Source: an uncultured Nostoc sp.
Lineage (GTDB): Bacteria; Cyanobacteriota; Cyanobacteriia; Cyanobacteriales; Nostocaceae
Direction of reading: 5' to 3'
Assembly: GCF_937863485.1 (NCBI RefSeq)
Contig: NZ_CALMFY010000131.1
Location: 1-64,000 of the forward strand
Length of the DNA: 64,000 nt
The translations under genes were made by a program, and so were the position numbers. The notes below the pieces were generated by a model. That model saw only the letters and a program-made list of their open reading frames with translations, was not told where the DNA came from and searched no databases. Of the stretch, positions 7,149 to 31,163 are shown one piece after another (the first letter of the stretch is position 1; each line of letters starts with the position of its first letter).

Positions 7149-7290
7149 GATCATGTCCGGTAAATTACTTATGATTGTTGCGTGACCTCTCAAGAGCAAC
7201 CCCTCCCCTACAAGGGGAGGGGAGCCTGTAGCTTTAGCTATAGGCGGAGTAAGGTTATTTTATTATGGGCAATTCAGCGGACATGATATA
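7149..7290. repeat. MITE-like repeat family C, copy 1
   Basis: About 140 bp bounded by imperfect inverted ends: ATCATGTCCGGTAAATT on the left and AATTCAGCGGACATGAT on the right. It encloses a CCCCTCCCCTACAAGGGGAGGGG hairpin split by a short loop. A second element with the same ends lies at 45296-45435. Confidence 0.65.
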
Positions 7291-7381
7291 GATCCTGGAA
7301 ACGAGGCTTTAAAAGAGTTTTGGCTTAAGTTGACACCAATGACAGATATGCGCCCCTACCGCGTGTTCTACTTCTATTTAC

Positions 7382-9181
7382 TTAGAAGTTATAGCCAACT
7401 CCTAATTGTAGTCCGACATCAGTGTCATCCACAAAAGCAGCATTTACACCACCTGTTAGCGTAAGTTTAGAACCGAGAGGAATGTCTACACCACCAGTTA
7501 ACAGTAATCCAATATCAGTATCAGCGTTAGCTTCAATTGCTATGCCAGCACCTATGTAAGGAGATATAGCAAAGGTTCTTTCACCCACCGAACCTGCTCT
7601 GCGCGGAGAAAAATCCAAAGTTACGGGAACTAGAAATACTGTATCGTCCCCAAAGATCACCGATGGTCGCACTGATAGAAAGTTTGTCAGACCAAATTTG
7701 CTGATTACTGTAAAGTTAGTATCGCTCAGAGCTGTATCGTCGCCGCCCAAACCAATGTTACCACCAACCCCGATGTAGCTTCTGCCACCACGAGTAGCTC
7801 TACCTACCGTAGGTGTCCCATTACTTCCTGTTGGTGGCTGATTTAACTGACTAATGTTAACATCAGGCGGGATCAGGACTTGGTTGACTGCATGGATAAT
7901 ACCATTGCTAGCTTTTACGTCCGCCTGGATAACTCTGGCATTATTCACCTCGACTTGATTGTTAGCGCGATCAATTTTAATATTTACAGGTCTTCCTTCA
8001 TCGGTTGCCAGTTTTCCAGGCGAGAATTGACTAGCAGTTACTGCACCAGGAAGCACATGATATCTCAAAATCTTAATCAATGCTTCTCTGTTTTCTGGTT
8101 GCTGTAACTGCTGTAAGGTAGCAGCAGGTAAAGCCGCAAATGCTTCATCAGTAGGAGCGAAGACTGTATAAGGGCCTGGCTGTTGAAGAATATCAGTTAA
8201 ACCAGCTGTCTTTAATAAAGAAGTCAGAGTTGTCAAAGAACTACTGGATGCAGCAAGAGAAACAATATCGGTACCTCTTTGAGTTCCACCGACAATATAT
8301 TGAGTAGCTGGAAGATTACTAGCAATGGGTTGTACCCTTCCCTGTTTAGCCAAAGCTTGATACAAGAGTGCCGCAGCTTCTGCACGAGTCAGGGACTGTT
8401 GCGGATTGAGTTGTTTTACATCTGGATAATTAACAACAATACTAGATTGTGTTGCTGCTGTCACACTATTTACAGCGTAGTTCGGGATACTTGAGGCGTC
8501 ATTGTAATAGGTGCTGAGGTCACTACTTGTTCCAGTGCTGCTAGGAGTTAAACCTAAACCACTCGCTAAAGCAACGATCCCCTGCACTCTAGGAATTTCT
8601 TGATTTGGTCTAAACACATTCCCAGGATAACCTGCCAGAAATCCAGTTTCATAGGCGCTCTGAATTGCAGAAGCCGCCCAATAGTTAGCAGGAACATCAC
8701 TAAATCCACCTGCGCTTAATTGCCGAACTCGGTTTTGGTTACCGAAAGCTTTTTGAATTAAAGCGGCAAATTCAGCACGAGTCACAGCTTGATTCGGCCT
8801 AAAGGTGCCATCAGGAAAGCCAGCAATCACGTTATTGTCAGCTAGGGCTTGAATGAAAGGACGCGCCCAATAATCTGAGGAAACATCAGACAAGTTAACT
8901 GTTGAAGTAGGTGATGGTGTTGTAAGTGATGGTGTCGCAGGCGATGGTGTGTCAGGCGATGGGGTTGCAGGCGATGGTGTATCGAGCGATGGTGTTGCAG
9001 GCGATGGTGTATCGAGCGATGGTGTCGCAGGCGATGGTGTGTCAGGTGATGGTGTCGTAGATGGAACAGTATTTTGAGATGAAGCTGGGGTAGAAATTAG
9101 GATGGGAGCTATTATAGCAGATGTCATTCCTAGAACTAGTAAAGCAACCCTTGTTGATGACCAACGAAACAAACTAGACAT
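7382..9181 (-). CDS. SLH-domain, fasciclin-domain, outer-membrane beta-barrel protein
   Basis: A 599-residue envelope protein. It has a signal peptide (residues about 1-35), then a low-complexity Pro/Thr/Ser linker built of 8-10 residue repeats (SPATPSLDTP, about 40-92). SLH repeats follow at about 95-290 (DYWARPFIQALADNNVIAGF; YPGNVFRPNQEIPRVQGI; NPQQSLTRAEAAALLYQAL). A fasciclin/BIgH3 domain covers about 297-435 (LKTAGLTDIL, PYTVFAPTDEAFAALP, ILRYHVLPG, NGIIHAVNQVLIPP). The C-terminal 130 residues alternate beta-strand-like and end in GVGYNF, the aromatic terminus typical of outer-membrane barrels. SLH domains anchor to peptidoglycan-linked polymer and fasciclin domains mediate adhesion. 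The combination suggests a wall-to-outer-membrane tether. It is transcribed alone. Confidence 0.85.
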   Translation of the reverse strand: MSSLFRWSSTRVALLVLGMTSAIIAPILISTPASSQNTVPSTTPSPDTPSPATPSLDTPSPATPSLDTPSPATPSPDTPSPATPSLTTPSPTSTVNLSDVSSDYWARPFIQALADNNVIAGFPDGTFRPNQAVTRAEFAALIQKAFGNQNRVRQLSAGGFSDVPANYWAASAIQSAYETGFLAGYPGNVFRPNQEIPRVQGIVALASGLGLTPSSTGTSSDLSTYYNDASSIPNYAVNSVTAATQSSIVVNYPDVKQLNPQQSLTRAEAAALLYQALAKQGRVQPIASNLPATQYIVGGTQRGTDIVSLAASSSSLTTLTSLLKTAGLTDILQQPGPYTVFAPTDEAFAALPAATLQQLQQPENREALIKILRYHVLPGAVTASQFSPGKLATDEGRPVNIKIDRANNQVEVNNARVIQADVKASNGIIHAVNQVLIPPDVNISQLNQPPTGSNGTPTVGRATRGGRSYIGVGGNIGLGGDDTALSDTNFTVISKFGLTNFLSVRPSVIFGDDTVFLVPVTLDFSPRRAGSVGERTFAISPYIGAGIAIEANADTDIGLLLTGGVDIPLGSKLTLTGGVNAAFVDDTDVGLQLGVGYNF

Positions 9182-9930
9182 GGAAATATCCTCTTTTCAA
9201 ATTCTTGGATTGACTATTGGAAAATACTGGATGCAAAGTTAAGTGAATACAAATATCGAGATGATTGTTTGGTTTGCCTCGATATGGAAACCACAAATAC
9301 AACCGTTAACTCTGGAAAATTTAAATGTTGGGCATTATAAGTAGCTGCTCTGACATCTGATCAAATTTATCCAAATGTTCACCACACATAGTATAAGATT
9401 CCTATTTGATTTTTAAAGAACCGCAGATAACACTAATAAGGATAAACAGGCATACTGTGGTAATATGGTATGTTGCAACAATTAAGAGAATAAGTACAAG
9501 TAGGCGATTTTATAACTGATAAAATCGCAGTCAAGCACTAAGAAAATGGGCTTATAATAGCCGTCTCTTTATGATTGCCCAGGAGGGTTAATGCCGTCAA
9601 GCCTAATGTATCATGATCTTTAGCAAGATTAAAGAAATAAAATTTTTCTTGGCGATATGCTGTAGTGTTACATCTTTGATAAAAATTATACAACTAACTA
9701 AGGGCTGGATTCCGAAGAAAAACTTTCACTCTTTAGATAGTTGTCCCTGATGGGCAATTTTAAAATGCTAAACCGGAAATTAGCGATCGCAATCTAAATT
9801 TTCGAGCATGATTGCGCCAAGATTTTTGGCTAGGAATTATTTTTTTGCAAAAGACAATTTTATGAAAATGAACCCACAGATAAACTAGGATTTTCGGAAG
9901 ATGTTTAATCTGCATCAATTTTGCTCATAA
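9182..9930. other. Gene-free intergenic stretch
   Basis: About 750 bp with no convincing reading frame on either strand. It includes the upstream region of the SLH-fasciclin gene, AT-rich sequence, and one HIP1 site near 9784. I see no clear hairpin or repeat shared with the rest of the window. Confidence 0.5.
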
Positions 9931-10445
9931 CTATAACTCCTTTGCCATTGCCTGAATTTCTACTGGTCTGTAGCCCCAACCTTGAGCAATTTCGTAATTA
10001 ACATCAGAATTTCGCTGCTCAATTAGGTGATAAATGTAGAGTATCCCATAGTGCCTGAAATTCATCTGTATCAACTTGTTGAGTATCTTCAGCACAGCTA
10101 CAGTTTTCCTCAAGCTGCGCCAATAGATTCCGAAAAAGTTGTCACGATCGCGTCGGGAGTAGTTCCTCCAGCTTGGAACAGAGGTTGTGAAGACTAACAA
10201 TAGCCCTCCTTGCTCACCATTTGGCTGATAAAGACCACACACCACATTCAAGCAAGGTTTAGCTGTATTCTGGGTAACGATCGCAGAGTAAGTTTCATCT
10301 CCGAAAAAAGAGCCATCTTCATAAATAAAATGCTACCTGGGTCAAGCAAATTTTGCCCCACAAGCTGTTCTGCGGTCAGTCCCAAAATGCGATCGCAAGT
10401 TGCACTGCAAGCCTGGATAGTGTCATCAGCCAACTGAAGCACCAT
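9931..10445 (-). pseudogene. Decayed PAS-domain sensor gene fragment
   Basis: A PAS domain is readable only by changing frame. The first segment (10445 downwards) reads LADDTIQACSATCDRILGL then TAEQLVGQNLLDP. The homologous continuation, YEDGSFFGDETYSAIVTQ then KPCLNVVCGLYQPNGEQ, is in a different frame from about 10340. After about 10200 a third frame gives GGTTPDAIVTTFSE, the expected end of such a PAS domain. At least two frameshifts and a premature stop are therefore present. The kinase or output domain normally following is absent. The tail ending near 9931 is of unknown origin. Confidence 0.65.
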
Positions 10446-10574
10446 TTCCTTTTCTTTCCTGGCTACTGGCGAATAATTTGCTTTTTTACTAACTTGGCGG
10501 TGCAGCAGCTTCTCATTAGCCAGCTGGTTTTAGAGCTTTTTTGCGTCTAGCATTCTAAAAAGTTAAATAGATTT

Positions 10575-10750
10575 AAACCTCATCTATGTTGAGAACTGTA
10601 GTTTTTGCCCTCACCCTAAATCCCTCTCCCAAGTAGGGAGAGGGACTTATTTTTGGCTCCGCTTCTGGCAATATTGGGAGAAGGGGCTGGGGGATGAGGG
10701 TTTTTCTGTTCATACGGAAAGAACTACAGTTTTCAAGGTGGACGCGGTTT
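10575..10750. repeat. MITE-like repeat family A, full copy
   Basis: A 176-bp element with imperfect terminal inverted repeats of about 35 bp: AAACCTCATCTATGTTGAGA at the left against AAACCGCGTCCACCTTGAAA (reverse complement of the right end), both running into ACTGTAGTT. Inside are two hairpins, CCCTCTCCCAAGTAGGGAGAGGG-like and TTGGGAGAAGG. There is no coding capacity. It is nearly identical to 37299-37477. Confidence 0.8.
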
Positions 10751-10829
10751 AAAGTTAATCTAAGATTTTCGGGCAATATCTTCCACCTTTAGGCTGAATA
10801 CAGCTAAATCACGACTTACGCACGGGTCA

Positions 10830-10900
10830 TGGAAAAACGTAGACGCATTGGCGCAGCCTCTCGTAGAGAAGCGGCTTGCCGCAGGCTACCACTCCAGACA
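10830..10900. repeat. Short dispersed repeat (CGCAGCCTCTCGTAGAGAAG type)
   Basis: GCGCAGCCTCTCGTAGAGAAG followed by GCGGCTTGCCGCAGGCTACC, a palindromic short dispersed repeat whose parts recur at 2340, 5100, 21785 and 62320. Confidence 0.55.
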
Positions 10901-15274: not shown

Positions 15275-16039
15275 ATGAATTTGCCTTTTCGGACATTGGG
15301 AGTTCCACCAAATGCGTGGACAGTAAATGATGCGATCGCAGATATTACTCGTCCTCAAAAGACCCCACAACCCGTTATTTTATCAACAGAAACTAAAACC
15401 CTGCATTTAGACTTGGCAAAAGCTGCTATCCTCGTCATTGATATGCAAAACGACTTCTGTCACCCTGATGGCTGGTTAGCGCATATTGGTGTGGATGTAA
15501 CTCCAGCGCGTCAGCCTATTGAACCTTTAAACAACTTACTTCCAGAACTTCGTGAGGCTGGTGTTCCAGTCATTTGGGTAAATTGGGGGAATCGTCCCGA
15601 CTTGCTCAATATTAGTGCTGGTTCGCGTCACGTCTATAATCCCACAGGGGGAGGTGTGGGATTGGGCGATCCACTGCCAAGCAATGGTGCTAGAGTACTC
15701 ATGGCAGGTAGTTGGGCAGCGGCAATAGTAGACGAACTAGAACAGATTCCGGAAGATATTCGTGTGGATAAATACCGCATGAGTGGTTTTTGGGATACGC
15801 CCTTAGATAGTATCTTGCGGAATCTGGGAAGGACAACACTATTTTTTGCTGGTGTTAATGCTGATCAATGTGTGCTAATGACCTTATGTGATGCCAACTT
15901 TTTAGGATATGACTGTGTGTTAGTTAAAGACTGTACCGCTACTACTTCTCCTGAATATTGTTGGCTGGCGACATTGTATAATGTCAAACAATGCTTCGGT
16001 TTTGTCACTGACTCGCAAGCAATTTTAACAGCGCTGTAA
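15275..16039 (+). CDS. Isochorismatase-like cysteine hydrolase
   Basis: A 254-residue enzyme of the cysteine hydrolase superfamily. The catalytic triad residues are visible: Asp in ILVIDMQNDFCHP near residue 61, Lys in IRVDKYRMSGFWDT near residue 167, and Cys in AGVNADQCVLMTLCDANF near residue 205. A DMQNDF..G pattern and these spacings resemble ureidoacrylate, biuret and N-carbamoylsarcosine amidases more than true isochorismatases. It would hydrolyse an amide or carbamoyl bond. The neighbouring nucleobase-related fragments on the other strand fit a role in pyrimidine or purine nitrogen recovery, but that is only context. Confidence 0.85.
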   Translation: MNLPFRTLGVPPNAWTVNDAIADITRPQKTPQPVILSTETKTLHLDLAKAAILVIDMQNDFCHPDGWLAHIGVDVTPARQPIEPLNNLLPELREAGVPVIWVNWGNRPDLLNISAGSRHVYNPTGGGVGLGDPLPSNGARVLMAGSWAAAIVDELEQIPEDIRVDKYRMSGFWDTPLDSILRNLGRTTLFFAGVNADQCVLMTLCDANFLGYDCVLVKDCTATTSPEYCWLATLYNVKQCFGFVTDSQAILTAL

Positions 16040-16398
16040 AAGAGTGAGGAGTAATTCGATTTGAGATTTGAGATTTGAGATTGATTTCATGTATGAATGC
16101 TCTTTATTTGCTCAATAATTTGAGATTTTAGATTTGTTCTTGCGTTTAAATTAGCTTGAACTCAAACTTTTTAAATTTTGGACTTTCCTGCGGAACGCTA
16201 CGCGTAGCAAGATCCCCGTAGGAGTACGGCGTGAGCGCTTAGGCGAACGCTTTTGAATTATTTAATCCCAAAATCCAAAATTTGAAATCTAAAATCTAAA
16301 ATTGGGTGATTTAGACATACAACTTAAACAACTCAATATTCAGGACTTGGATTTTAGGAATTTTCATACCCAACAATCACTTCCGAGGGGATAAATAA
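16040..16398. repeat. Intergenic dispersed repeats
   Basis: No gene. It contains GATTTGAGATTTGAGATTTG triplets (16060-16081), a GCGGAACGCTACGCGTAGCA / CCCCGTAGGAGTACGGCGTG short dispersed repeat (16192-16232), and AAATCCAAAATTTGAAATCT tracts. These resemble the tracts at 2030-2220 and 26370-26405. Confidence 0.55.
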
Positions 16399-17106: not shown

Positions 17107-18186
17107 TTACGAGTTATTAATAATTTGTTTAACAACAGTAACAAAGCGTTCCATGTCAGCGTGGGTTATCGCTCCCATTGTCGAGACTCGGAAAATAGAT
17201 TGAGCTAAATTTCCCTGTCCAGAATAAATTATATAGTCTCGTGCTTTGAGTTGGTCGTGAAATTCCTCATAGCTGAAACCCTCTGGCAAATAGTAGGCAT
17301 TCAAGACAACGGATGAACTGCCAAGAGGAAGTAGGGGTTTAATTCCGATTGAGGCTAACCCGTCTCTAACTAAGCTAGCAAGTTGGTTGTAATGGCTGTG
17401 TCTGGCACTCCAACCCCCTGCTTCTGCCATTTCTTGCAAAGCTTCCGTTAAGGCATAAAATGTCTGTACTGATTGCGTAAAAGGTGTGCCGCCTCGGTCT
17501 TGCTGCTGGCAATAGGTTCCTAAATCTAAATATAAGGTGCGGGGGATTGTGGCTACTGACGGCAGTGCATCTCGTCGCAGGATGACAAAGGAGGTTCCGG
17601 GGACACCATGCAGACATTTATTGGCTGTTGCAGCGCAAGCGGTGATTCCCCAATCTGCAAAATTCAGTTCCTCGCCACCAAAACTGCTGACACCATCCAC
17701 TAGTAATTGAATATGGCGTTCTTGACAAATTAACGCAAGTTCCACCAAATTATTTAGGCGACCGGTAGTAGTTTCGTGATGGACAACAGCAAGATGGGTG
17801 ATATCGGCGTTTTCATTTAAAAGTTTGACTAAACCGTTGATATCTATTTCGGCATCCCAAGCATGGGAAAGTGTTATGTAATCAATGCTGTGGATTTTGG
17901 CGATTTTGGATAGTCGTTCGCCATATACACCGTTTTCAATCACCAGCAATTTCCCGTCTTTGGGGACTAGACTGCTGATCATAGCTTCCATCGCTGCGGT
18001 ACCAGAACCTGTGAGGAGAACTGCTGCCCAGCGATCGCTTTCAAGACCATAAACTTGAAGTAATTGTTCGCGGATTTTGCTTTGAAGTTGGGAAAATTCT
18101 ACTTCACGATGACACAAATCGGGACGCAACAGGGCGTTTCTGACGCGATCGCTCAAATTTACGGGGCCGGGATTTAGTAAAATCAT
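17107..18186 (-). CDS. phnW: 2-aminoethylphosphonate--pyruvate transaminase-like class V aminotransferase
   Basis: A 359-residue PLP enzyme of the PhnW/alanine-glyoxylate aminotransferase family. It opens with ILLNPGPVNLSDRVRNAL and the DLCHREVEF motif. LLTGSGTAAMEAMISSLVP (residues about 57-75) forms the cofactor phosphate site. The Asp contacting the pyridine nitrogen is in LLVDGVSSFGGE near 166, and the Schiff-base Lys is in ATANKCLHGVPGTSF near 191. The family interconverts phosphonoacetaldehyde and 2-aminoethylphosphonate. Here it lies 44 bp downstream of phosphonopyruvate decarboxylase, in biosynthetic context. The predicted direction is therefore amination to aminoethylphosphonate rather than degradation. 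A GACGCGATTAATCGCGTC palindrome occupies the gap. Confidence 0.85.
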   Translation of the reverse strand: MILLNPGPVNLSDRVRNALLRPDLCHREVEFSQLQSKIREQLLQVYGLESDRWAAVLLTGSGTAAMEAMISSLVPKDGKLLVIENGVYGERLSKIAKIHSIDYITLSHAWDAEIDINGLVKLLNENADITHLAVVHHETTTGRLNNLVELALICQERHIQLLVDGVSSFGGEELNFADWGITACAATANKCLHGVPGTSFVILRRDALPSVATIPRTLYLDLGTYCQQQDRGGTPFTQSVQTFYALTEALQEMAEAGGWSARHSHYNQLASLVRDGLASIGIKPLLPLGSSSVVLNAYYLPEGFSYEEFHDQLKARDYIIYSGQGNLAQSIFRVSTMGAITHADMERFVTVVKQIINNS

Positions 18187-18222
18187 TACAAAGAGACGCG
18201 ATTAATCGCGTCTGTACAGGAG
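18187..18222. repeat. GACGCGATTAATCGCGTC palindrome
   Basis: AGACGCGATTAATCGCGTCT followed by GTACAGG. This is a perfect palindrome between ppd and the transaminase gene. The same palindrome is at 19904-19925, 19943-19963 and 56626-56646; the variant GACGCGATGAATCGCGTC is at about 29653-29671. Confidence 0.8.
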
Positions 18223-18230
18223 TTAGAATT

Positions 18231-19397
18231 TTATTGCCAGTCTGAACCAATATGTTTCATGAAGCGTTGCAAAACTGCTTCCGGGGTGAGGTTGGGTCGA
18301 GGTAGCTTTTCTAAAGTTCCGGGACGGATTTTCAGATGCGCGAATTTCGGTCTAATGTTGGTATCTGCGGTAAATAAGGCATCTAAAAGCGCTGGGTCAT
18401 CTCCGGCTAATGTAACGCCATAACCGCACCCTTCGGCAATCTTGGCAAAGGAGATACCCGCAGAGACGGTAGCTTGTGCGCCTGTGGAATCATGGACTTC
18501 ATTATCTAAGAGAATATGGATTAAATTAGCACCGCCATAAGTGCCGATGGTAGCAAAATTACCCATTCGCATTAGTGCTGCTCCATCGCCATCAATTACT
18601 ACTACCTTCAGGTCTGGACGTGCTAAGGATAGCCCCAATCCCATTGAGGAAGCGCAGCCCATCGACCCGACCATATAAAGATGATTGGCGCTGTCTTTGC
18701 TGGCGAAGAGTTCCCGTCCAGTGTATCCGGTGGTGGCAATTACTACAGTGTTTTCTGGATCGGTAAGTTCAACAATCCGAGCCAAGGCTTCGCTGCGAGA
18801 AACGCGTTGTTCTTTGTGATCCCGAAAAAAGCTTTGCTGAATATGAGCGCTACTACTATTTTCTCGTTCGGGGATAGAAGAACGGGTGAGTGCATGGGGG
18901 GCGATCGCTCCTTTACGCATAATTAGAGCATAAGGACAGCGCTCTTGTCTCATGTAGGCTGTGGCTCTTTGCAGAACGGGTTCTATTTCTGCTGCGTTTG
19001 TGGGAAAAAATTCCCAAGGTATAGTCATTGTTTGCAGTAATTTATCTGTGATTTGCCCCATTAATTGATGTTGTGGTTCATCTTGCAACAGGCGATCGCC
19101 TCGCAAGGTACAAATCAGCAGCAGTGGAATCCGAAAGATATAAGTGAGGGACGTTAGCGGGTTAACAGCATTTCCCAAACCAGAGTTTTGCATCATCACC
19201 ACCGCTGGTTTACCAGCAATTGCTGCTCCCGCTGCGATCGCTACAGCATCTCCCTCATTGGCTGCGGAGATATATCTAAGTTGAACGTCATTGATGACGT
19301 AGTTAATAAAAGGCGTGAGAAAAGAACAGGGTACGCCAGTGTACCAGCCAAAGCCAAGATTACGCGAAGCTTCTACAAATTCCTCTGCCTGAATCAT
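18231..19397 (-). CDS. ppd: Phosphonopyruvate decarboxylase (thiamine diphosphate dependent)
   Basis: A 388-residue ThDP enzyme, the usual length for Ppd. The N-terminal PYR-like domain has the cofactor-activating Glu in AANEGDAVAIAAGAAIAGK (about 41-59) and QNSGLGNAVNPLTSL (about 70-85). The C-terminal PP domain has the ThDP/Mg motif GDGAALMRMGNFATIG, then LLDNEVHDSTGAQ (about 250-302). Ppd drives the thermodynamically unfavourable PEP mutase reaction by decarboxylating phosphonopyruvate to phosphonoacetaldehyde. It sits between pepM (568 bp upstream, repeat-filled gap) and the transaminase gene (44 bp downstream), in reaction order. Confidence 0.92.
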   Translation of the reverse strand: MIQAEEFVEASRNLGFGWYTGVPCSFLTPFINYVINDVQLRYISAANEGDAVAIAAGAAIAGKPAVVMMQNSGLGNAVNPLTSLTYIFRIPLLLICTLRGDRLLQDEPQHQLMGQITDKLLQTMTIPWEFFPTNAAEIEPVLQRATAYMRQERCPYALIMRKGAIAPHALTRSSIPERENSSSAHIQQSFFRDHKEQRVSRSEALARIVELTDPENTVVIATTGYTGRELFASKDSANHLYMVGSMGCASSMGLGLSLARPDLKVVVIDGDGAALMRMGNFATIGTYGGANLIHILLDNEVHDSTGAQATVSAGISFAKIAEGCGYGVTLAGDDPALLDALFTADTNIRPKFAHLKIRPGTLEKLPRPNLTPEAVLQRFMKHIGSDWQ

Positions 19398-19474
19398 AAT
19401 TAAAAATTTACAGTAATTTTCAGGTATTTAGACGATTGAGATCGGGAGTGGGGAGTCGTCTTGAAAAGAAGTAT

Positions 19475-19568
19475 CTGACTGGGAATGCCTAATGGGAGGC
19501 TTTGCCTCAAGATTTGCGGCAGAGCCGCAATGAAGGGCATTTCCAGCCTCTGGCTGGAAACGAGGTTT
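19475..19568. repeat. Dispersed palindromic repeat
   Basis: GGGAGGCTTTGCCTC, GCGGCAGAGCCGC and TTTCCAGCCTCTGGCTGGAAA hairpins. This is the same family as 16970-17095 and 59425-59460, inside the pepM-ppd gap. Confidence 0.6.
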
Positions 19569-19640
19569 TAATGGGGTTTGGGCTTAAGTTGACACCAAAG
19601 TAGTAATGTTTCCTACCAACGTATTTGTATCATTAAAGTC

Positions 19641-19868
19641 AACTCGGAACTTCGACCTTTGAAATCGGAACTCTGACCTTTGAACTCGGAAGTTCGACCT
19701 TTGAACTTGGAACTCCGACCTTTGAACTCGGAAGTTCAACCTTTTAGCTCGGAAGTTTGACCTTTTAACTCGGAGTTCCGACCTTTTAACTCGGAGTTCC
19801 GACCTTTTAGCTCGGAACTTCGACCTCAGAACTCGAAACCTCAACTTCAAAACTCAAAATTTTAACCT
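19641..19868. repeat. 21-bp tandem repeat array inside the phosphonate cluster
   Basis: About ten imperfect copies of GAACTCGGAAGTTCGACCTTT. The minus strand stays open and would give a basic heptad (consensus VQRSEFR), but there is no credible start site. I regard it as a non-coding minisatellite. The period is exactly half that of the 10958-11233 array and equal to that at 35249-35316. Confidence 0.8.
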
Positions 19869-19965
19869 CACAATACAAAGCGTCAAGCTTAGAACTCTTG
19901 TACAGACGCGATTAATCGCGTCTCTACTCCTAACTCCTGTACAGACGCGATTAATCGCGTCTCCC

Positions 19966-21621
19966 CTATTGCTTTAATTGAAAAGCAAGGTCAAGATCAT
20001 CCAAAGAATTAACATCTAACCAGTTACCGCGAATATAAAGCACCTTGATTGGTTTTCCTTGCTCAATTAAATAATTGCATAATTCTGGCAAACCCAAACT
20101 GTTGAATTCCGGTCGTTTTTGTAATTCATCGAGTGCTTCACTCAGCCACTGTCTACCTTGACTCCGCAGACGCAGCATCCCAATCCAGCGTCCGCTAGAT
20201 TTCCCCAATTGCGTTTGTGTTGTTTTAGAAATGTCCAACAGGTTGACATCCTGTCCAAAGAGAGAAAGATCGTCTGGAATTGAGCAATAAGCGTAGTCAG
20301 GTGAACCGCTAACAGACTTGCTGTTCGCCACAGAATCAACCACAGCCACAATTTCTCCGGGACATTCTAATAAATCCCGCAGGATGTAGCTTCTAAATAG
20401 TAAATCGCCGTAAAGCACCAGCATCTCGTCGCTGAAGTTGGTTTGAGCTACGGCTAAGGATGCTAATTCTCCCGTTGTTTCATAATCTGGGTTGCGGATG
20501 ACTTTAGTCCCCGGAACATTAATAGTTTCTGCTTTGTAACCCGCGACAACAGTAATATCGTTGATGGCAAGTTTCTTAAATTTGTCCACCAACAACCTGA
20601 GTAGGGGTTTACCTCCAAGGGGTAACATCACTTTCGGTTTATCTTGCGTCAATGCTGCTAATTCTTGGCCTCTGCTAGCAGCCAAAACGATCGCTTGGGT
20701 ATCGTGGCGTCCATTGTTAAAGTAGCGTTTTTCAGCTTCTATGAGTTCATCCGCCCCCTGTAGCCGGAAAATTTCTTTTACAGGCGCAATCTCATCTTCA
20801 ATGTTGATTAAAGTTTCGCTGGCTTTGACTTCACGAGCGATCGCTTGCATACTTGCAACAGCAGCTCGAATCAGATGATTTGCCCAGATGACCAAATTCA
20901 CTTCAGCTTTGCGAAAGACATCGGTGGGAGTACTGTAATATTTAGTCGGTATAATTACTAACGGGGAACGACCCGCCCACTCTTTGGCAAAGGCTAGCAC
21001 TTGATCAGGACGCGATGATTTACTGTGAATCAGGATGGCGTTGGCTCCTGCGGCGTGGTAAGCTTCAGCTCGGCGCATTGCCTCTGAAAGATCCCACCCG
21101 GCAATCAAAGCTTCGAGTCGGGCGACGATGCAAAAATCTGGATCTGTCTGACTATCCTTACCTGCCTTAATTTTGCCGGAGAATTCATCAATATCAGCCA
21201 AAGCTTGGCGACTTCCATTGATGAAACTATTGGTTTTGGGAAAAAGCTTATCTTCAATACAGACTCCAGCAATACCCCGCTGTTCTAACTTCTTAACCAG
21301 CCGACGCATATTATTAAAGTTGCCATAACCAGTATCCCCGTCTAACAAAATAGGGATGCTGGTAACATCAGACATGAACTCCAGCATTTCCACAACTTGA
21401 GTCCAACTGGCTTCATTATTATCTCGAACGCCATATTGAGCCGAAAGGGCTAATCCACTCGCCCAAATTCCTTTAAATCCAGCCTCTTCCACAATGCGGG
21501 CGCTAATCCCATTGTGAGCTTCCATGATGAAGTCGAGTTGAGGCGATTCTAATAATACCCGTAGCTGGGCACACTTACTTAATTTGGCAGCGTTGACAAT
21601 GGGTGCAAATATTTGATGCAT
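19966..21621 (-). CDS. pepM: Phosphoenolpyruvate mutase fused to a nucleotidyltransferase domain
   Basis: A 551-residue fusion. Residues about 1-290 are PEP mutase of the isocitrate-lyase superfamily: the metal/phosphate loop [10 protein letters not shown] (93-101) and the diagnostic EDK-x5-NS signature ([10 protein letters not shown], 123-132), which separates true PEP mutases from other family members. Residues about 308-551 are a nucleotidyltransferase fold ([12 protein letters not shown], then [34 protein letters not shown]). In that domain the glycine/arginine loop is altered to SRGQE, as I recall from other PepM fusions. The enzyme forms the C-P bond, converting PEP to phosphonopyruvate. 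The fused domain may activate a phosphonate with CTP. It is the committed gene of the cluster. Confidence 0.93.
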
Positions 21622-21840
21622 CTATTCTGCTTTTTTCAACCTATATAATATAGCGGTTCTCAATTGCATGGAATACAGACCTAACAAGAACAGCCCCTTA
21701 AGAGCTAGCGTTGGGGAGTAAACCTCAAAGCCTCTCTCCTTTTAGGAGAGAGGAATGGAAGTAAGGTCAGACTTTAATACATCCATAGACGCGTAGCGGC
21801 TTCCCGCAGGGTACGATAACTGCTACAAATTAAAATATTT
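21622..21840. repeat. Intergenic region with partial family D repeat
   Basis: TATAGCGGTTCTCAATTGCA then TGGAATACAGACC at 21649-21681 matches 28973-29005. It is followed by CTCTCTCCTTTTAGGAGAGAG (hairpin, about 21734-21754) and a CGCGTAGCGGCTTCCCGCAG short dispersed repeat near 21790. Confidence 0.6.
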
Positions 21841-22602
21841 TCAGACATTCTCTACAACTTCTATCTGAGGTAAAATATCATTTTGGGCACGTTGAATATC
21901 CTGGGGAAAATCGATTTCGAGCCAAGGTAAACCAGTGATGTCTTCGTAGCCAAATTTTTCGGGAGTTTCTAATAGTAGATCCCGAATTACTTCTTCATAA
22001 GGCTCATCATGTCGTCCGTCAGCAACATATTGTTCTGTGTGAGTAGCAATCCGGTGAGCAGTAATACTTCCAAAACGAAAGAATCCCACTGACTCGCCGG
22101 CAAAATCATAAGCCAAACCAGGAGCTATTTGTTTACGAAACTCCACTAGATAATTATCTCTGACGCAAAGCTTCACGGGTTCATCTCCCGGTTCAAAATC
22201 TCGATCCAGTAAAAAGCAGTCGGGGATATTTGTCTTTACCAGTCGTTCGATGATGCGGCGATCGTACAAAACATCTGCATCCATTAATAATATGTCATCG
22301 CCAGCGACTAGATGCTGACGAACAGTCCAAAGGCTGATTACACTACCTTTAGTGTAGTCAGGATTATAAACTGTACTGACCCAATTTTCGGCTCCCAATG
22401 CTTTGATTTCCTCCTGAATTCTTTCTGCTTGGTAACCCACAGCAATCACTACTTCGTCAATCTGGTAATGACGGAGATAGTTCAAATGGCGCTCTAATAG
22501 AGATTTGCCGTTAAATTTCAGTAAGCATTTGGGTTGGATTTGCCCATCTTTACCTAAGCGTCGTCCAACGCCAGCAGCTAATATAATTGCCTTCATTGTC
22601 AA
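21841..22602 (-). CDS. Cytidylyltransferase-like NTP transferase (phosphocholine/phosphonoalkyl cytidylyltransferase family)
   Basis: A 253-residue single-domain nucleotidyltransferase. The canonical loop is intact: AIILAAGVGRRLG followed by PKCLLKFNGKSLLERHLNYL (residues about 4-42). MDADVLYD (about 107-114) supplies a metal-binding Asp, and PWLEIDFPQDIQRA (about 226-239) supplies the second. This pattern is that of CTP:phosphocholine and the PntC-type CTP:2-aminoethylphosphonate cytidylyltransferases. In this cluster the simplest role is making CMP-2-aminoethylphosphonate for the CDP-alcohol phosphatidyltransferase at 24716-25357. Substrate preference (AEP or phosphocholine) cannot be told from the sequence. 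MKAIILAAG two codons in is an equally good start. Confidence 0.85.
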   Translation of the reverse strand: MTMKAIILAAGVGRRLGKDGQIQPKCLLKFNGKSLLERHLNYLRHYQIDEVVIAVGYQAERIQEEIKALGAENWVSTVYNPDYTKGSVISLWTVRQHLVAGDDILLMDADVLYDRRIIERLVKTNIPDCFLLDRDFEPGDEPVKLCVRDNYLVEFRKQIAPGLAYDFAGESVGFFRFGSITAHRIATHTEQYVADGRHDEPYEEVIRDLLLETPEKFGYEDITGLPWLEIDFPQDIQRAQNDILPQIEVVENV

Positions 22603-22730
22603 GTCACCAACAAAGCTATAACACCAGAAAATCTGGAAATTTTCCCGTATTTTATAATGACTGTTTTTTGCTCAAGACAATATTTGTTAATTAATTCTTA
22701 ACATGGAAGAAAGATTAACTCTGTACCGCC

Positions 22731-23444
22731 TCAATTGCGAAACACCTGGCGAAAACCAAAATAGGCGATCGCATCTTTCATATTCGAGACAAAACGTTTT
22801 AACATACCCATGTTGGTGTCGGTGACGTACTCCAAAGTTAAGACAATGCGCTGTTCATTTTCACCCAAAGGAGTAACTCTGTGGTAAAGTTTGTCACCAT
22901 TGAATAAGACTATAGTACCAGGGGTTAAGGAGAGCGATCGCGTTTGTGTCTCCCGTTCAGGAATATCCTTGTAAAGTTGATATTCCAGCTTACTGGATGA
23001 ATTATCAACTAAACCAAGCAACACTGTATAGCGTTTCCCGCGATAGTAAGAGGTATCGTAATGATACTGAATATGGTCTCCAGGCTCAGTGTAATAGTAC
23101 AGCGCGTAAGTATGGGGATCAGCATTAGGACAGGGAAGTAGTTTTTCTGCCGTAATTTTGTTGAGGAACTCAAAAAAAACATTGAGTTGATAAAACTCTC
23201 CGAAAATCGGAGCAAGGCTGTCTAAACTATAGCGGCTGATACTACCGCCCTTTTTATGATTGGGAATATAGTTGCGATTTATAGCAGGTTGCAAAGATGG
23301 CAAAAGCGCCAAAAACTTCTCGATGATGGAGTTAGGGAGAAAGTTTTCAACCACCAAAAATTCATTTTGAGCCTGAAACTCAGCTTGAAATTTCTGGTAA
23401 TCAACAGCTGCTATAGCTTTATCAATTTCAGTTTGAAGCTCCAT
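22731..23444 (-). CDS. 2-oxoglutarate/Fe(II)-dependent oxygenase
   Basis: I prefer the start at MELQTEIDKA (237 residues); fifteen in-frame codons upstream are hydrophobic leader-like sequence without conservation features. The jelly-roll 2OG-Fe(II) signature is visible: iron ligands in QYHYDTSYY (HxD, about residues 127-135) and in DKLYHRVTP (His, about 188-196). The 2OG-binding Arg is in EQRIVLTLEY. It resembles prolyl-4-hydroxylase-like oxygenases. In the phosphonate gene block it could hydroxylate aminoethylphosphonate or the finished lipid headgroup, as PhnY-type enzymes hydroxylate C1 of AEP. This is inferred only from location, 128 bp upstream of the NTP transferase gene. Confidence 0.8.
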   Translation of the reverse strand: MELQTEIDKAIAAVDYQKFQAEFQAQNEFLVVENFLPNSIIEKFLALLPSLQPAINRNYIPNHKKGGSISRYSLDSLAPIFGEFYQLNVFFEFLNKITAEKLLPCPNADPHTYALYYYTEPGDHIQYHYDTSYYRGKRYTVLLGLVDNSSSKLEYQLYKDIPERETQTRSLSLTPGTIVLFNGDKLYHRVTPLGENEQRIVLTLEYVTDTNMGMLKRFVSNMKDAIAYFGFRQVFRN

Positions 23445-23792
23445 TGATAATTTGATACTAATACAAGATTGCAAAAATAAACATACCATTCACTCAACAA
23501 ATTGTCCCACAATACCCACAACCTTAACATTTGCGTCTTTGCTTGATATTTGCTATTACACATATCATAATCTCTGCTTATATATGAAAAAGCCGCTTGC
23601 TTACTCTATCAAGGGGTTTTCAGGCTGCATGGATTCGTTTTACTTATCTGAGGAGTGTAACTCTATCCTTCATTCTTTACGCTGATTATAATTTCACTCT
23701 AAACTTGCTAACATGTTTAATAAATGCGATCGCACTTTTAAACTCAACATAATTTCTTCTTTTTACAAAAAGTTTTTTAGAAAACATCGCAA

Positions 23793-24422
23793 CTACACAT
23801 CGTTATTGTCTGGGGTTACTGACGTGTTAATAATCTTTATGTCAGGGGTTACATTAAAACCTTTTGGTTTTAATTGTTGAGATGATTTTTCAAATAACTG
23901 ATTAATTCTATATCTAAGGTCTTTTTTTGAAAAGTTTATTATTACTTGAGTAACCGATTCAAGTAAGTCAGTCCATAAAGGATTATCAGAATATATTTTA
24001 AAAGTTTCAGTAACTACTTTTTCTTCTTTTATCGATGGTGCTATAACAATAAAAATATCATCCTCTTGTTTAATAGAGATATACATAGCAATTCCTGAAG
24101 GTGGCACTAAATTTTTATTAAAAAAGCTTTTACCACAACTACTAATATTAAAACCTATATTGGGTGCAGAAATCACTAATTTAAAACTAAAAAAACATTC
24201 ATTATCTACAATAATAGCATCTTGAATAAAATTATAAGGAGCAATTTTAGAGCCTTTTTCATCAACAATATATATATCTTTTCCTGGACTACATTCAATA
24301 TGTAAAGCGATTTTATCAATCAGTTCGCGGATAAAATCAAAATTTCTACCTACATATGCATAGGTATCCTCATAATCTTTGTTCACACTATCGACCAGAT
24401 GTTGAAATATTGATTTGGGCAT
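23793..24422 (-). CDS. Hypothetical protein, 209 aa, within the phosphonate gene block
   Basis: I do not recognise this protein. It is soluble, AT-rich in coding sequence, starts MPKSIFQHLVDSVNKDYED, and shows a predicted alpha segment followed by mixed beta strands (VDNECFFSFKLVISAP, DDIFIVIAPSIKEEKV) and a helical C-terminal part. There is no signal peptide, membrane span, metal motif or nucleotide-binding loop. It lies on the same strand between the CDP-alcohol transferase (293 bp upstream) and the oxygenase (about 350 bp downstream). It might belong to the cluster or be a passenger. Its codon composition is noticeably more A/T-rich than that of pepM or ppd. Confidence 0.6.
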   Translation of the reverse strand: MPKSIFQHLVDSVNKDYEDTYAYVGRNFDFIRELIDKIALHIECSPGKDIYIVDEKGSKIAPYNFIQDAIIVDNECFFSFKLVISAPNIGFNISSCGKSFFNKNLVPPSGIAMYISIKQEDDIFIVIAPSIKEEKVVTETFKIYSDNPLWTDLLESVTQVIINFSKKDLRYRINQLFEKSSQQLKPKGFNVTPDIKIINTSVTPDNNDV

Positions 24423-24715
24423 AATGATAAAACTTTTAGGAAAAAAATCATAGTATCATGTTGAAATGACACTTTGCAAGTAAGTACTAAGTTTAGGAGT
24501 GCGATCGCACTTTTACAATCAACCACTAACGAGTTATTCAAGAGAATTTGGGAAGAAAGCAGCAGGTAAAATCTGCAAAAATAAGTAATCAGGCGATACT
24601 TATTTTTTTAATATTAAAAACTGTAAGTTAGCAAGTGCGATCGCAAAATTTGATTATGCATTCAAGAAAGCTAAAAAGCCTGTTTTATTAGCTTTCTGCC
24701 CCATGCCCCGTTATA

Positions 24716-25357
24716 CTAGTTTGATTCCGGCTGCGGGAGTGCCCAAAATTGCCAAATTACCCATATAGCAAAAGTTGGTGCCCCAATTGTAGCTGCCATT
24801 AGTAACGGCTCTAGTCCATGCAGTAAGGTAACTATGGGAAACAAATACAGCACGTCTTCAATGTCAAACCCGGCAAAATTTGGTTGACGGCTGGCGTCTT
24901 TACCTAAACGCTGTTCCATTTGGTTTCGCAAATGAAATATGCAAGCAACAGATACACCAGATACTATCCCCATTAGTAACGCCCACCAACCAAATTTTCC
25001 CTCCTTAAGACCATATCCAATACATACAAACAAAAGAATGTGGATGATGGCGTCACTAGCGAGATCATACTGATGTCCCCATTTGCTGCTTTTCCCACTC
25101 AAACGAGCTAATTCACCGTCCGTGTGATCTAGAAAGTTGGATAAAGCAAACAGCCCTGCCCCAATATTAGCCCAGATGGCATCGCCAACTGCGATCGCTA
25201 CGGCAGCTGCCAACCCTGTCACAAGTCGCACTGTGGTGAGATGATTAGGGTTTACCCAACTGTCTTTTAGAGGTTTAACTAGCCAGTAAGCAAGTTGAGC
25301 ATCCCAAGGCTTGGTAATCATAGATGAACTTGAATTTGATATGGTCTTTGAATACAT
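24716..25357 (-). CDS. CDP-alcohol phosphatidyltransferase family protein
   Basis: A 213-residue membrane enzyme with about five to six hydrophobic helices. The catalytic CDP-alcohol phosphotransferase signature is intact in the form D-G-x2-A-R-x8-G-x3-D-x3-D: TDGELARLSGK followed by GHQYDLASD (residues about 78-101). This family transfers a phosphoalcohol between CMP and an alcohol. In bacteria it makes phosphatidylglycerol phosphate, phosphatidylserine or aminoalcohol lipids. Located upstream of a cytidylyltransferase, PepM, Ppd and an AEP transaminase, it is the expected last step: joining CMP-aminoethylphosphonate to diacylglycerol or another lipid alcohol. It could instead be an unrelated phospholipid synthase. 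Confidence 0.85.
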   Translation of the reverse strand: MYSKTISNSSSSMITKPWDAQLAYWLVKPLKDSWVNPNHLTTVRLVTGLAAAVAIAVGDAIWANIGAGLFALSNFLDHTDGELARLSGKSSKWGHQYDLASDAIIHILLFVCIGYGLKEGKFGWWALLMGIVSGVSVACIFHLRNQMEQRLGKDASRQPNFAGFDIEDVLYLFPIVTLLHGLEPLLMAATIGAPTFAIWVIWQFWALPQPESN

Positions 25358-27426: not shown

Positions 27427-28890
27427 ATGGGACAAAACACTTCACATCGCTCAGTTTTACAAGGTTTGATTACCAGTGCAATTGTTATCGGGTTTGATTT
27501 AACTACTCGTTCCTGGGTAACATCTGCCAGTGCCACATCTGTTTTTGAAAGTTTACCTTCCTTAGATGGAGTGCTTTACACCGATAATATGACACTTGCT
27601 GATGCCAGTATTGACTTTGGTAATATCGTGCATCGTCAACCGATAGCAGTACTTAAACCAGGCTCAATAGAGGATATTATTCAAGTTATTCAATTTGCTC
27701 GGACTCACAAGCTCAAGGTTGCCCCACGCGGTCAGGGTCACTCTACCTACGGTCAGTCACAAGTAGAAGCAGGCATCGTCATTGATTTAAGTCCGCTCAA
27801 CAAGATTCATTTCATTGGTACAGACCGAGCAATTGTTGATGCTGGAGTGGTATGGAGTCAGTTATTGCAACAAACGCTTGCTATGGGATTAACACCGCCC
27901 GTTCTCACTGATTACATCGAGCTTTCTATCGGCGGTACTTTATCAGTGGGGGGTATTGGCGGTGCAACTCATCGCTATGGTGTGCAAGTTGACAATGTTT
28001 TAGAACTGAAGGTGATAACTGGTACTGGTGATCTCGAAACTTGCTCACTGTTGTACAATCGCAATCTATTTACAGCAGTACTAGCAGGGCTAGGTCAATG
28101 TGGAATTATTGTACAGGCAACTGTTAAGCTAATTCCCGCCACTACCAATGCCCGTGTATTTCAGTTGTATTATGACGATTTGGCTAGCTTTACTCGTGAC
28201 CAATGCGAAATCATAAATGATCAGCGCTTCAACTATGTAGAAGGTCAGTTAGTTTCTAATAATGCTGGTGGATGGCGTTATCTGCTAGAAGTGGCTAGCT
28301 TTTACAGTCCTCCAAGCATACCTAATAACAGTTTGTTACTTGCGGGGTTAAACTATACTCGCGGTACAGAACAAATAGAGGATAAAACTTACTTTGATTT
28401 TCTCAACCGTTTAGCTCCTACAGTTGCCCTTTTCAAATCTATTGGTGTTTGGTCAAATCCTCATCCTTGGTTAAATCTGTTTGTACCCAGTAGTGCAGTT
28501 AACAGTTTTGTTGGTGAAGTCGCTGCCACCTTAACCCTAGCTGACACTGGTCAAGGGCCAATTCTGCTGTATCCAGTTAAAACTAAACGCTTCGGGCTAC
28601 CCAATTTCCGGGTTCCGAACCAAAAGGTTGTGTTTCTGTTTGCCCTATTGCGAACAGTAGTACCACCAGATGATTCTGTAATTACAAAAATGCTCAATGA
28701 TAATCGTAGACTCTTTGAGAAAAATCGTGATTTGGGTGGTTATCAATATCCTGTAAACACCCTGTCCTTCTCCCATCATGATTGGCAGCAGCATTTTCGT
28801 CCGGTTTGGGGAAATTTGGTAAGTGCAAAGCGACGTTACGATCCAGATAATTTACTAACGCCAAGTCAGGGCATTTTTGCAAACTGTTAG
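27427..28890 (+). CDS. Cytokinin dehydrogenase-like FAD-dependent oxidoreductase
   Basis: A 487-residue PCMH/BBE-type flavoprotein with a hydrophobic N-terminal leader (residues about 10-38), suggesting export. The FAD-binding region has VAPRGQGHSTYGQSQ (about 97-112), where the His of GHS is the covalent FAD attachment residue in cytokinin dehydrogenases. ELSIGGTLSVGGIGGATHRY follows at about 171-190. The C-terminal lobe ends in a W-x2-HF-x2-VW stretch and YDPDNLLTPSQGIF, as in plant CKX. The likely reaction is oxidative side-chain removal from isopentenyl-type cytokinins or a similar amine or alcohol. A cyanobacterial CKX homologue has been described in Nostoc. It is monocistronic. Confidence 0.75.
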   Translation: MGQNTSHRSVLQGLITSAIVIGFDLTTRSWVTSASATSVFESLPSLDGVLYTDNMTLADASIDFGNIVHRQPIAVLKPGSIEDIIQVIQFARTHKLKVAPRGQGHSTYGQSQVEAGIVIDLSPLNKIHFIGTDRAIVDAGVVWSQLLQQTLAMGLTPPVLTDYIELSIGGTLSVGGIGGATHRYGVQVDNVLELKVITGTGDLETCSLLYNRNLFTAVLAGLGQCGIIVQATVKLIPATTNARVFQLYYDDLASFTRDQCEIINDQRFNYVEGQLVSNNAGGWRYLLEVASFYSPPSIPNNSLLLAGLNYTRGTEQIEDKTYFDFLNRLAPTVALFKSIGVWSNPHPWLNLFVPSSAVNSFVGEVAATLTLADTGQGPILLYPVKTKRFGLPNFRVPNQKVVFLFALLRTVVPPDDSVITKMLNDNRRLFEKNRDLGGYQYPVNTLSFSHHDWQQHFRPVWGNLVSAKRRYDPDNLLTPSQGIFANC

Positions 28891-29741: not shown

Positions 29742-31163
29742 ATGGAAAACAATCAAGAATACCATATGTCCTCAGATGAATTTCGTCATTGGGGATATAA
29801 AACTATTGATTGGATAGCTAATTATTTAGAAACAGTAGAGCAACTGCCTGTTTTATCTCAAGTAGAACCTGGAGACATTAGAGCCAAACTACCAGAAACA
29901 GCCCCGGTAAAAGGAGAGTCTTTTGCAGACATTTTACAAGATTTAGATGAAATCATCGTACCAGGATTGACTAATTGGCAGTCTCCAAACTTTTTTGCTT
30001 TCTTTCCTACAGGTATTTCTGCACCATCAATTTTAGGAGAATTAGTCAGTGCGGGACTTGGAGTTCAGGGGATGTTGTGGGCAACTTCTCCAGCTTGCAC
30101 TGAGTTAGAAACTCATGTTTTAGATTGGTTGGTAGATATGTTGGAACTTCCCTCGCAGTTTAAATCTTCGACCACAGGAGGAGGAGTAATTCAAGACTCA
30201 GCCAGTAGTGCTTCTTTAGTAGCTTTGATAGCAGCTAGAGAACAGTTAAAAGCAGATATTAATCAACTGGTTGTCTACACTTCTATTCAAGCACACTCTT
30301 CAATTGAGAAAGCTGCCATTGTAGCGGGAATTAAGCGAGACAATCTCCGTTTAATTGAGGTTGATGCTGATTATAGAATGCGTCCAGAATTACTACAACA
30401 GCAGATTATTTCAGATATTGAATCTGGGTTAATCCCTTTTTATATTGCTGCTACTGTGGGGACAACCTCATCTCATGCCATAGATCCATTAACAGAAATA
30501 GGTGCGATCGCTCAAATACATAACATTTGGCTCCATGTTGATGGCGCAATGAGCGGTACAGCAGCTATATGTCCTGAGTATCGGTGGATTCATCAAGGAT
30601 TAGAACTAGCAGACAGCTATTGTTTTAATCCTCACAAATGGATGCTAACTAATTTTGATTGTACCTGTTTTTATGTGAAAGACCGAGCCAAACTAATTCA
30701 TGCATTATCTATCATGCCTGAATTTCTCAAAAATCAAGCTAGCACGTCTGGTAAAGTTATTGACTATCGAGATTGGCAGATTTCTTTAGGACGTAGATTT
30801 AGAAGTCTTAAACTGTGGTTTGTAATTCGGCACTATGGTATAGAAGGCTTACAGCATTATATTCGCAAGCATATTGCTTTAGCACAACAATTTGCTGAAT
30901 GTGTAAAATCTCATCCTAGTTTTGAACTGGTTGTAAATCCCCCGTTAAATTTGGTATGTTTTCGCCATAAATTGGGTAATGCAATTAACCAAGAAATCAT
31001 TAACAATATCAACTCTTCGGGTAAAATCTATCTTACTTCCACTAAGCTTGAGCAAAAATTAACTTTAAGAATGTCAATTGGACAAGCAACCACAGATAAA
31101 ATACACGTACAGCACGCTTGGCAATTAATTTGTGAAACTGCTGAGAATATAGAAAATCATTAA
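29742..31163 (+). CDS. Pyridoxal-dependent aromatic L-amino acid decarboxylase
   Basis: A 473-residue group II PLP decarboxylase. Conserved elements are the N-terminal WGYKTIDWIANYLETVE, SPNFFAFFPTG (residues about 83-93) and the cofactor stacking His in IQAHSSIEKAA near 185. The Asp binding the pyridine nitrogen is in WLHVDGAMSGTAA near 266, and the Schiff-base Lys is in FNPHKWMLTNFDCT near 299. Length and pattern fit aromatic amino acid decarboxylases (DOPA, tryptophan or phenylalanine) rather than glutamate decarboxylase. The product would be an aromatic amine. It stands alone between repeats; no partner oxidase or transporter is adjacent. Confidence 0.9.
   Translation: MENNQEYHMSSDEFRHWGYKTIDWIANYLETVEQLPVLSQVEPGDIRAKLPETAPVKGESFADILQDLDEIIVPGLTNWQSPNFFAFFPTGISAPSILGELVSAGLGVQGMLWATSPACTELETHVLDWLVDMLELPSQFKSSTTGGGVIQDSASSASLVALIAAREQLKADINQLVVYTSIQAHSSIEKAAIVAGIKRDNLRLIEVDADYRMRPELLQQQIISDIESGLIPFYIAATVGTTSSHAIDPLTEIGAIAQIHNIWLHVDGAMSGTAAICPEYRWIHQGLELADSYCFNPHKWMLTNFDCTCFYVKDRAKLIHALSIMPEFLKNQASTSGKVIDYRDWQISLGRRFRSLKLWFVIRHYGIEGLQHYIRKHIALAQQFAECVKSHPSFELVVNPPLNLVCFRHKLGNAINQEIINNINSSGKIYLTSTKLEQKLTLRMSIGQATTDKIHVQHAWQLICETAENIENH

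Follow-up and report, generated by a model that had tools for sequence, protein, structure and literature searches.

We analyzed a 64,000-nucleotide stretch of DNA from an uncultured Nostoc sp. (assembly GCF_937863485.1, contig NZ_CALMFY010000131.1; hereafter the window), which carries on its minus strand a phosphonate gene cluster that includes a cytidine diphosphate (CDP)-alcohol phosphotransferase. The genes of the cluster, and one further gene upstream of it, are as follows:

17107–18186, minus strand: 2-aminoethylphosphonate aminotransferase (AEPT), above the TIGR03301 cut-off
18231–19397, minus strand: phosphonopyruvate decarboxylase (Ppd), above the TIGR03297 cut-off
19966–21621, minus strand: phosphoenolpyruvate (PEP) mutase with EDK-x5-NS motif, fused to a nucleotidyltransferase domain that forms the C-terminal part from about residue 308 (TIGR02320, PF12804)
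21841–22602, minus strand: NTPT, a standalone LicC/PntC/IPCT-like nucleotidyltransferase (PF12804; closest solved relatives 1jyk, 6pd1, 2xme, and 4mnd)
22731–23489, minus strand: 2-oxoglutarate (2OG)-Fe(II) oxygenase of hydroxylase type with HxD...H...R (Pfam scan, residue alignment)
23793–24422, minus strand: open reading frame (ORF) of 209 aa, an accessory insert left unassigned to a family by Pfam and NCBIfam, also present in the close relative L067
24716–25357, minus strand: CDP-alcohol phosphotransferase, the proposed transferase of 2-aminoethylphosphonate (AEP) to a lipid, possibly a hopanoid (PF01066, AlphaFold, Foldseek)
35584–37251, minus strand: B12-binding radical SAM protein with DUF4070, of HpnP or HpnP-like type, a candidate hopanoid C-2 methylase

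A first-pass annotation, made from the sequence without database searches, had named six of the cluster genes, i.e., all except the 209-aa ORF. These six are open frames on the minus strand at the coordinates given here, and Pfam and NCBIfam confirmed their families; the intact CDP-alcohol transferase motif and the PEP mutase motif EDK-x5-NS, both reported at that stage, are indeed present. Transcription runs from 25357 to 17107 in the order CDP-alcohol phosphotransferase, 209-aa ORF, 2OG-Fe(II) oxygenase, NTPT, PEP mutase, Ppd, and AEPT. Intergenic gaps measure 44–568 bp, and we therefore speak of a cluster and not of a tight operon. The 209-aa ORF, which splits the cluster and gave no Pfam or NCBIfam match, was found elsewhere only in L067 when 34 and then 80 loci were searched with it (G and L numbers are our handles for genomes and loci). 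The sequence DGELARLSGKSSKWGHQYDLASD is present as a single occurrence in the six-frame translation of the window, which also contains the EDK-x5-NS stretch of the PEP mutase.

The three enzymes of AEP synthesis exceeded their curated NCBIfam cut-offs: AEPT with 421.7 bits (TIGR03301, cut-off 360.8), Ppd with 443.7 bits (TIGR03297, cut-off 312.5), and PEP mutase with 385.5 bits (TIGR02320, cut-off 319.55). As the PEP mutase is a 551-aa fusion, the cluster holds two nucleotidyltransferases; the first-pass annotation had recognized the standalone NTPT and missed the fused domain. NTPT has an NTP_transf_3 domain with a conserved lysine and acids, as PntC cytidylyltransferases require. Residue alignments, in which some loci are second copies of one genome region, showed the EDK-x5-NS motif in 70/70 loci and NTPT residues K25, D108, D110, E229, and D231, which we take to be the conserved lysine and the metal-binding acids, in 74/74 loci. 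Of the fused-domain residues, K330 and D406 are invariant (68/68 loci), D536 is kept in 60/68, and N538 in 66/68. Both arrangements have a precedent in PntC, whose NTP_transf_3 domain is described as standalone or fused to PEP mutase, and the PF12804 fusion was reported for 32.9% of 1485 PEP mutases (PMC6697681); the window cluster has both forms. The oxygenase motif HxD...H...R is kept in 56/56 aligned loci, and the gene is broken or not found in several relatives. In HalD/BesD halogenases, glycine or alanine replaces the acidic iron ligand, and the conserved ligands thus rule out a halogenase of this type. Probable translation starts are an in-frame ATG two codons in for NTPT and Met16 for the oxygenase. 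In L070/L107, a reversed AEPT fragment (68%, residues 237–304) separates PEP mutase from Ppd and points to past duplication and rearrangement in the cluster.

The CDP-alcohol phosphotransferase (hereafter the transferase) scored 59.5 bits against a cut-off of 22 for PF01066 and carries the intact motif DG-x2-AR-x8-G-x3-D-x3-D. It is predicted to be a membrane enzyme, and its AlphaFold model is a confident helix bundle (pLDDT 94.9). Foldseek returned AF2299 (4o6m) and IPCT-DIPPS (4mnd) as the nearest solved folds, followed by PIP synthases and CEPT1. AF2299 and IPCT-DIPPS share the fold (TM-score to the query 0.71–0.77) and the intact motif at 17–18% identity in the Foldseek alignments; unlike IPCT-DIPPS, the transferase lacks a fused nucleotidyltransferase half. 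Since all of these enzymes lie near in fold, the fold does not tell the acceptor. Translation probably starts at Met13 (25321), because in-frame stops lie between the annotated start and Met13 in 3/30 relatives. An identity as housekeeping PgsA was rejected, as the transferase reached 23.9 bits against the TIGR00560 cut-off of 109.1 and fell into a separate clade of a tree. Many forks of this tree are poorly supported and its outgroup branches are long, and it serves only to separate this clade from PgsA and from the type at L088. The one other PF01066 protein of the window genome (141.5 bits, contig C46) was taken as its PgsA.

Two loci hold further CDP-alcohol transferases. Brasilonema L126 has a second transferase (15590–16243; 48% identical) directly before NTPT and PEP mutase, and its first copy adjoins HpnI and a DUF4070 gene. 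L088 (G360; 1174–10855) is another cyanobacterial cluster with a PEP mutase fusion, but its CDP-alcohol transferase is of another type and its NTPT distant (28%); it also has methyltransferase-like and dehydrogenase-like ORFs named by eye and is apparently a second phosphonate tailoring set.

The transferase closely follows the PEP mutase gene pepM. Among 53 genomes of the genus, 31 contain pepM, 31 contain the transferase, and 30 contain both (Fisher test, p = 1.5e-12, not corrected for kinship); the two unpaired genomes have a truncated pepM only (G278) or a transferase fragment only (G421). Both outcomes that the first-pass annotation had named as speaking against its proposal, a transferase that groups with PgsA and one that does not co-occur with pepM, were thus absent. 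In nine genomes (G386, G396, G401, G406, G407, G409, G411, G419, and G430), the transferase lies apart from pepM, either on a separate contig or, in G409, 844 kb off, and NTPT stays beside pepM in all of them. The oxygenase is found with the transferase in five of these split genomes (G386, G396, G401, G407, and G430) and with pepM in G409 and G419; it was not found in the split genomes G406 and G411. In G391 (72% complete), a contig ends within pepM and the transferase is on another contig; this is probably an assembly break, since NTPT sits beside the transferase. The 31/53 genomes with pepM agree with a cluster that is patchy but common in the genus; across a phylum sample, pepM was found in 6/386 genomes, one of them with a truncated gene and two from other genera with different neighbors. 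The unit also recurs outside the cyanobacteria: in the plasmid collection, the transferase and a PEP mutase match covering at least 80% of the fusion occur in one and the same set of 15 records. Nostoc punctiforme NIES-2108 and Nitrococcus mobilis Nb-231 each hold PEP mutase, NTPT, Ppd, AEPT, the oxygenase, and the transferase in a single stretch, and in Chlorogloeopsis fritschii PCC 6912 only the transferase was seen. No AEPT was found next to the cluster of G405 (L075). Decayed clusters were also seen: L089 (G278) lacks the transferase and retains a truncated PEP mutase plus remnants of NTPT, and L090/L182 (G421) lacks PEP mutase and retains a transferase fragment next to matches for HpnI and HpnJ. 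Taken together, the earlier proposal of AEP synthesis linked to the transferase is backed by family membership, co-occurrence, and gene order.

Regarding the lipid, we examined gene neighborhoods in relatives. A contig scan with 15 orthologues yielded 83 loci; the 80 that were kept comprise 47 from outside the cyanobacteria and 33 from within. Several Nostocales have HpnI, HpnJ, and a B12-binding radical SAM-DUF4070 protein upstream of the transferase; curated cut-offs were passed by HpnI in L080, L084, and L123 and by HpnJ in L080 and L084. HpnI and the transferase occur together in 12 genus genomes; in eight of them an HpnI above the cut-off is at most 5 kb away from the transferase, one of the eight being G421 with its transferase fragment. 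HpnH lies 1.7–5.4 kb from AEPT in G386, G396, G401, and G406 and 2.5 kb from it in HT-58-2 (L122), and a DUF4070 orthologue lies 0–5.1 kb from the transferase in 25/33 cyanobacterial loci. The window has this DUF4070 orthologue (91% identical) at 35584–37251; a second intact DUF4070 protein of the window genome (contig C46) is 33.5% identical to it. As true HpnP and HpnP-like proteins have the same three domains (PMC10697835), we regard the 35584–37251 protein as a candidate hopanoid C-2 methylase of either kind.

Outside the cyanobacteria, the linkage involves more genes. Matches (E 1e-25) to Hpn proteins or squalene-hopene cyclase (SHC) occurred in 41/47 loci, or in 33/47 when HpnL was not counted. 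HpnA matched in 31/47 loci and lies within 1 kb of the transferase in 30; other matches were squalene/phytoene synthase (26 loci), HpnL (20), HpnG (12), HpnH (10), and SHC (7). Curated cut-offs were passed by HpnH, SHC, HpnA, and HpnL in L155, where HpnG fell just short (186.9 vs. 187.1 bits), by HpnA in L165, and by HpnH in L174; the squalene synthase-type genes did not reach the cut-offs of the curated models for squalene synthase. The Roseomonas marmotae cluster (L186) is flanked by hpnC/D/E, shc, an hpnG-type gene, hpnH, and ispH, and on the other side by a polyprenyl synthetase gene. The Mycetohabitans cluster holds an LPG-synthase-type membrane protein, whose counterpart in L155 is above the HpnL cut-off. 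Among 117 neighbor ORFs from 11 loci of our choice, the matches listed (25/73 Pfam and 25/56 NCBIfam families) include HpnA, SHC, HpnH, HpnL, the hopanoid transporter HpnN, dxs, and squalene/phytoene synthase; in these listed matches, glycerolipid synthesis is represented only by the transferase's own family. Neighbor-family counts are lower bounds, as ORF calling missed some real genes. Three records in this set (L151, L161, and L162), metagenome-assembled genomes titled Klebsiella pneumoniae, hold gammaproteobacterial hopanoid-type genes, and their titles look wrong.

SHC was also compared at the genome level. It was above the curated cut-off in 43/47 non-cyanobacterial carrier genomes (any match, 45/47) and present in 26/185 genomes sampled from the class of the carrier Nitrococcus, three of the 26 being carriers. 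After removal of these three, the comparison was 43/47 vs. 23/182 (Fisher test, p = 5e-25, not corrected for kinship). The test covers 47/80 loci and leaves out all 33 cyanobacterial ones, because an order-wide sample contained 7/368 carriers, too few for a test within cyanobacteria. The four misses comprise a full-length match below the cut-off (G439), a short fragment (G456), and two genomes without a match (G457 and G477), although the G477 locus (L179) holds HpnA and HpnH.

From the observed gene content, motifs, co-occurrence, and hopanoid-gene linkage, we infer the substrates and the product of the following pathway. PEP mutase, Ppd, and AEPT would convert phosphoenolpyruvate to AEP. A nucleotidyltransferase of the PntC kind (NTPT, the PEP mutase-fused domain, or both) would join AEP to cytidine monophosphate (CMP), and the membrane-embedded transferase would pass the phosphonyl group from CMP to a hydroxyl of a bacteriohopanepolyol, with CMP being freed. 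The acceptor would most likely be bacteriohopanetetrol, and the oxygenase would add an optional hydroxyl to AEP or to the lipid. This scheme does not explain why two nucleotidyltransferases persist over such distances. On balance, we somewhat favor the view that the cluster makes such a phosphonate-headed hopanoid ("phosphonohopanoid"). That AEP is attached to any lipid we likewise infer; it is the neighborhoods in relatives that suggest a hopanoid as this lipid. The earlier proposal of AEP on a lipid thus stands with regard to the complete pathway, and the kind of lipid, which it had left open, is narrowed by these neighborhoods. We give about equal weight to either side of the broader claim that Nostoc and its relatives, various gammaproteobacteria, Burkholderia, Mycetohabitans, and Roseomonas have in common a single dedicated enzyme clade that places AEP, sometimes hydroxylated, on bacteriohopanepolyols as a cap.

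One class of acceptor is disfavored. HpnI was not found in the window genome (no match at E 1e-40), nor in 18/29 other genomes with both pepM and the transferase, which argues against bacteriohopanetetrol glucosamine or cyclitol ether as the required acceptor. Because of the missing HpnI match in the window genome, the required acceptor would rather be bacteriohopanetetrol.

Several observations weigh against a phosphonohopanoid, the missing HpnI of the window genome among them. The only hopanoid-type neighbor in the window is the HpnP or HpnP-like gene, 10.2 kb upstream of the transferase, and HpnH and SHC of the window genome are on other contigs than the cluster. SHC is present in 52/53 and HpnH in 51/53 genus genomes, and their presence is therefore uninformative within the genus. 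No Hpn or SHC gene was found in the fetched DNA of 16/23 Nostoc loci, 4/10 other cyanobacterial loci, and 6/47 non-cyanobacterial loci, and an HpnL-like gene is the sole Hpn-type gene in three of four plasmid loci. A published cyanobacterial hopanoid co-occurrence module comprises HpnA, HpnB, SHC, HpnH, and a phosphorylase (PMC5862535), and the module as given there does not list this transferase. PIP synthases, which use CDP-diacylglycerol, fit the transferase model about as well as CEPT1 does. Furthermore, the hopanoid linkage might mirror a shared outer-membrane lipid program and not a shared molecule.

The strongest competitor, which we nevertheless consider unlikely, is a phosphonoglycerolipid: the transferase would use CMP-AEP in the way CEPT1 uses CDP-choline and place AEP on diacylglycerol or alkyl-acylglycerol. 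CEPT1 and cholinephosphotransferase have the fold of the transferase, CEPT1 is a weak sequence match, and a phosphonolipid is the published reading of 2018 for a lichen Nostoc, where the abbreviation list contains diacylglycerol and alkyl-acylglycerol (PMC5987646). However, hopanoid and squalene genes, and not glycerolipid synthesis families, recur among the matches listed for the 117 neighbor ORFs, and the 43/47 carriers with SHC outside the cyanobacteria are hopanoid producers by gene content.

We find it still less plausible that the fused domain activates AEP for another purpose and that NTPT and the transferase, in the manner of the two IPCT-DIPPS halves, make a different head group, e.g., from a phospho-alcohol, which may likewise end on a hopanoid. 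In favor of this possibility are loci without PEP mutase in the fetched DNA, which also count against a phosphonohopanoid: where non-cyanobacterial loci extend 7 kb or more beyond the transferase on its downstream side (28 loci), eight are of this kind. Six of the eight keep NTPT beside the transferase, four of these with the oxygenase, either in the order transferase–oxygenase–HpnL–NTPT (L147, L154, L167, and L172) or NTPT–transferase–HpnA (L165 and L170); the remaining two (L140 and L176) show no partner of the transferase in the fetched DNA. In such loci, pepM may lie elsewhere, as in the nine split Nostoc genomes, or another activated head group may be used. The six loci thus weaken the case for a phosphonohopanoid and for the shared clade, slightly lower the standing of the glycerolipid and glycan alternatives, and raise that of another head group. 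NTPT and the transferase also match the two halves of NF041135 (IPCT-DIPPS), and the likely catalytic residues are kept in both nucleotidyltransferases, so that one of them may use a different substrate. However, the NF041135 matches (77.5 and 36.7 bits) are far under the IPCT-DIPPS cut-off of 580, the transferase tracks pepM within the genus, and NTPT remains beside PEP mutase in the nine genomes with a moved transferase. A phosphonoglycan or lipid-linked polymer, with AEP ending on a surface glycan, is improbable. In its favor, surface glycans and lipids are the destinations given for most phosphonate clusters of bacteria (PMC6697681), and in the order relative L087, PEP mutase is followed by ORFs that resemble, by eye, glycosyltransferases and cytidylyltransferases. 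Against it, there is no LicD family among the Pfam matches of the cluster genes, the sole transferase of the cluster is a predicted membrane CDP-alcohol enzyme, and the L087 stretch lacks this transferase clade.

Parts of a phosphonohopanoid pathway are already known, i.e., the Nostoc phosphonolipid prediction and a pepM–hopanoid linkage in Roseomonas. The gene list of the Nostoc II clade, which equals that of the window, was published in 2018 as a phosphonolipid cluster by Gagunashvili and Andresson (PMC5987646), who cite Yu et al. 2013 for the pathway and show a Burkholderia cluster for comparison; Burkholderia clusters were also recovered in our analysis. The statement of the first-pass annotation that phosphonolipids are poorly documented in cyanobacteria is therefore partly outdated, and its interpretation overall is partly supported. 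In the available text, the 2018 study reads its cluster as phosphonolipid and draws no link to hopanoids, though a legend names hpnL. A survey of 2021 proposed an "undiscovered terpene-phosphonate" for Roseomonas clusters with pepM linked to hopene cyclase (PMC8776678), and the R. marmotae cluster (L186) is such a cluster. The survey text available to us covers Acetobacteraceae only and contains neither the transferase, a cytidylyl mechanism, nor cyanobacteria. The passages available from PMC5472815, PMC9765116, and PMC8692599 mention hopanoid clusters and phosphonate clusters in separate places. Within the searched open-licence PubMed Central literature, we found no report of a phosphonate hopanoid, nor of one transferase clade that ties cyanobacteria and proteobacteria together with a mechanism. 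What is likely new here is the probable identity of the lipid and a single transferase clade linking phosphonate and hopanoid genes across phyla.

Apart from the cluster, the window contains a plus-strand gene (27427–28890) for an FAD oxidase with a cytokinin dehydrogenase-type FAD/cytokinin-binding domain (PF09265) and, nearby, a pyridoxal phosphate-dependent decarboxylase gene (29742–31163). Both are possibly related to plant hormones.

Hopanoids are steroid-like lipids, the bacterial counterparts of sterols, and among the best-known molecular fossils; their polar heads help set their position in the envelope. If our reading is true, it would describe a lipid class that joins a C–P head group to a hopanoid. 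Such a head group should withstand phosphatases and phospholipases, and it might vanish in routine hopanoid work-ups, so that a widespread lipid could have been overlooked. It would also suggest a destination for the phosphonate in lichen-forming Nostoc and in fungus-dwelling Mycetohabitans.

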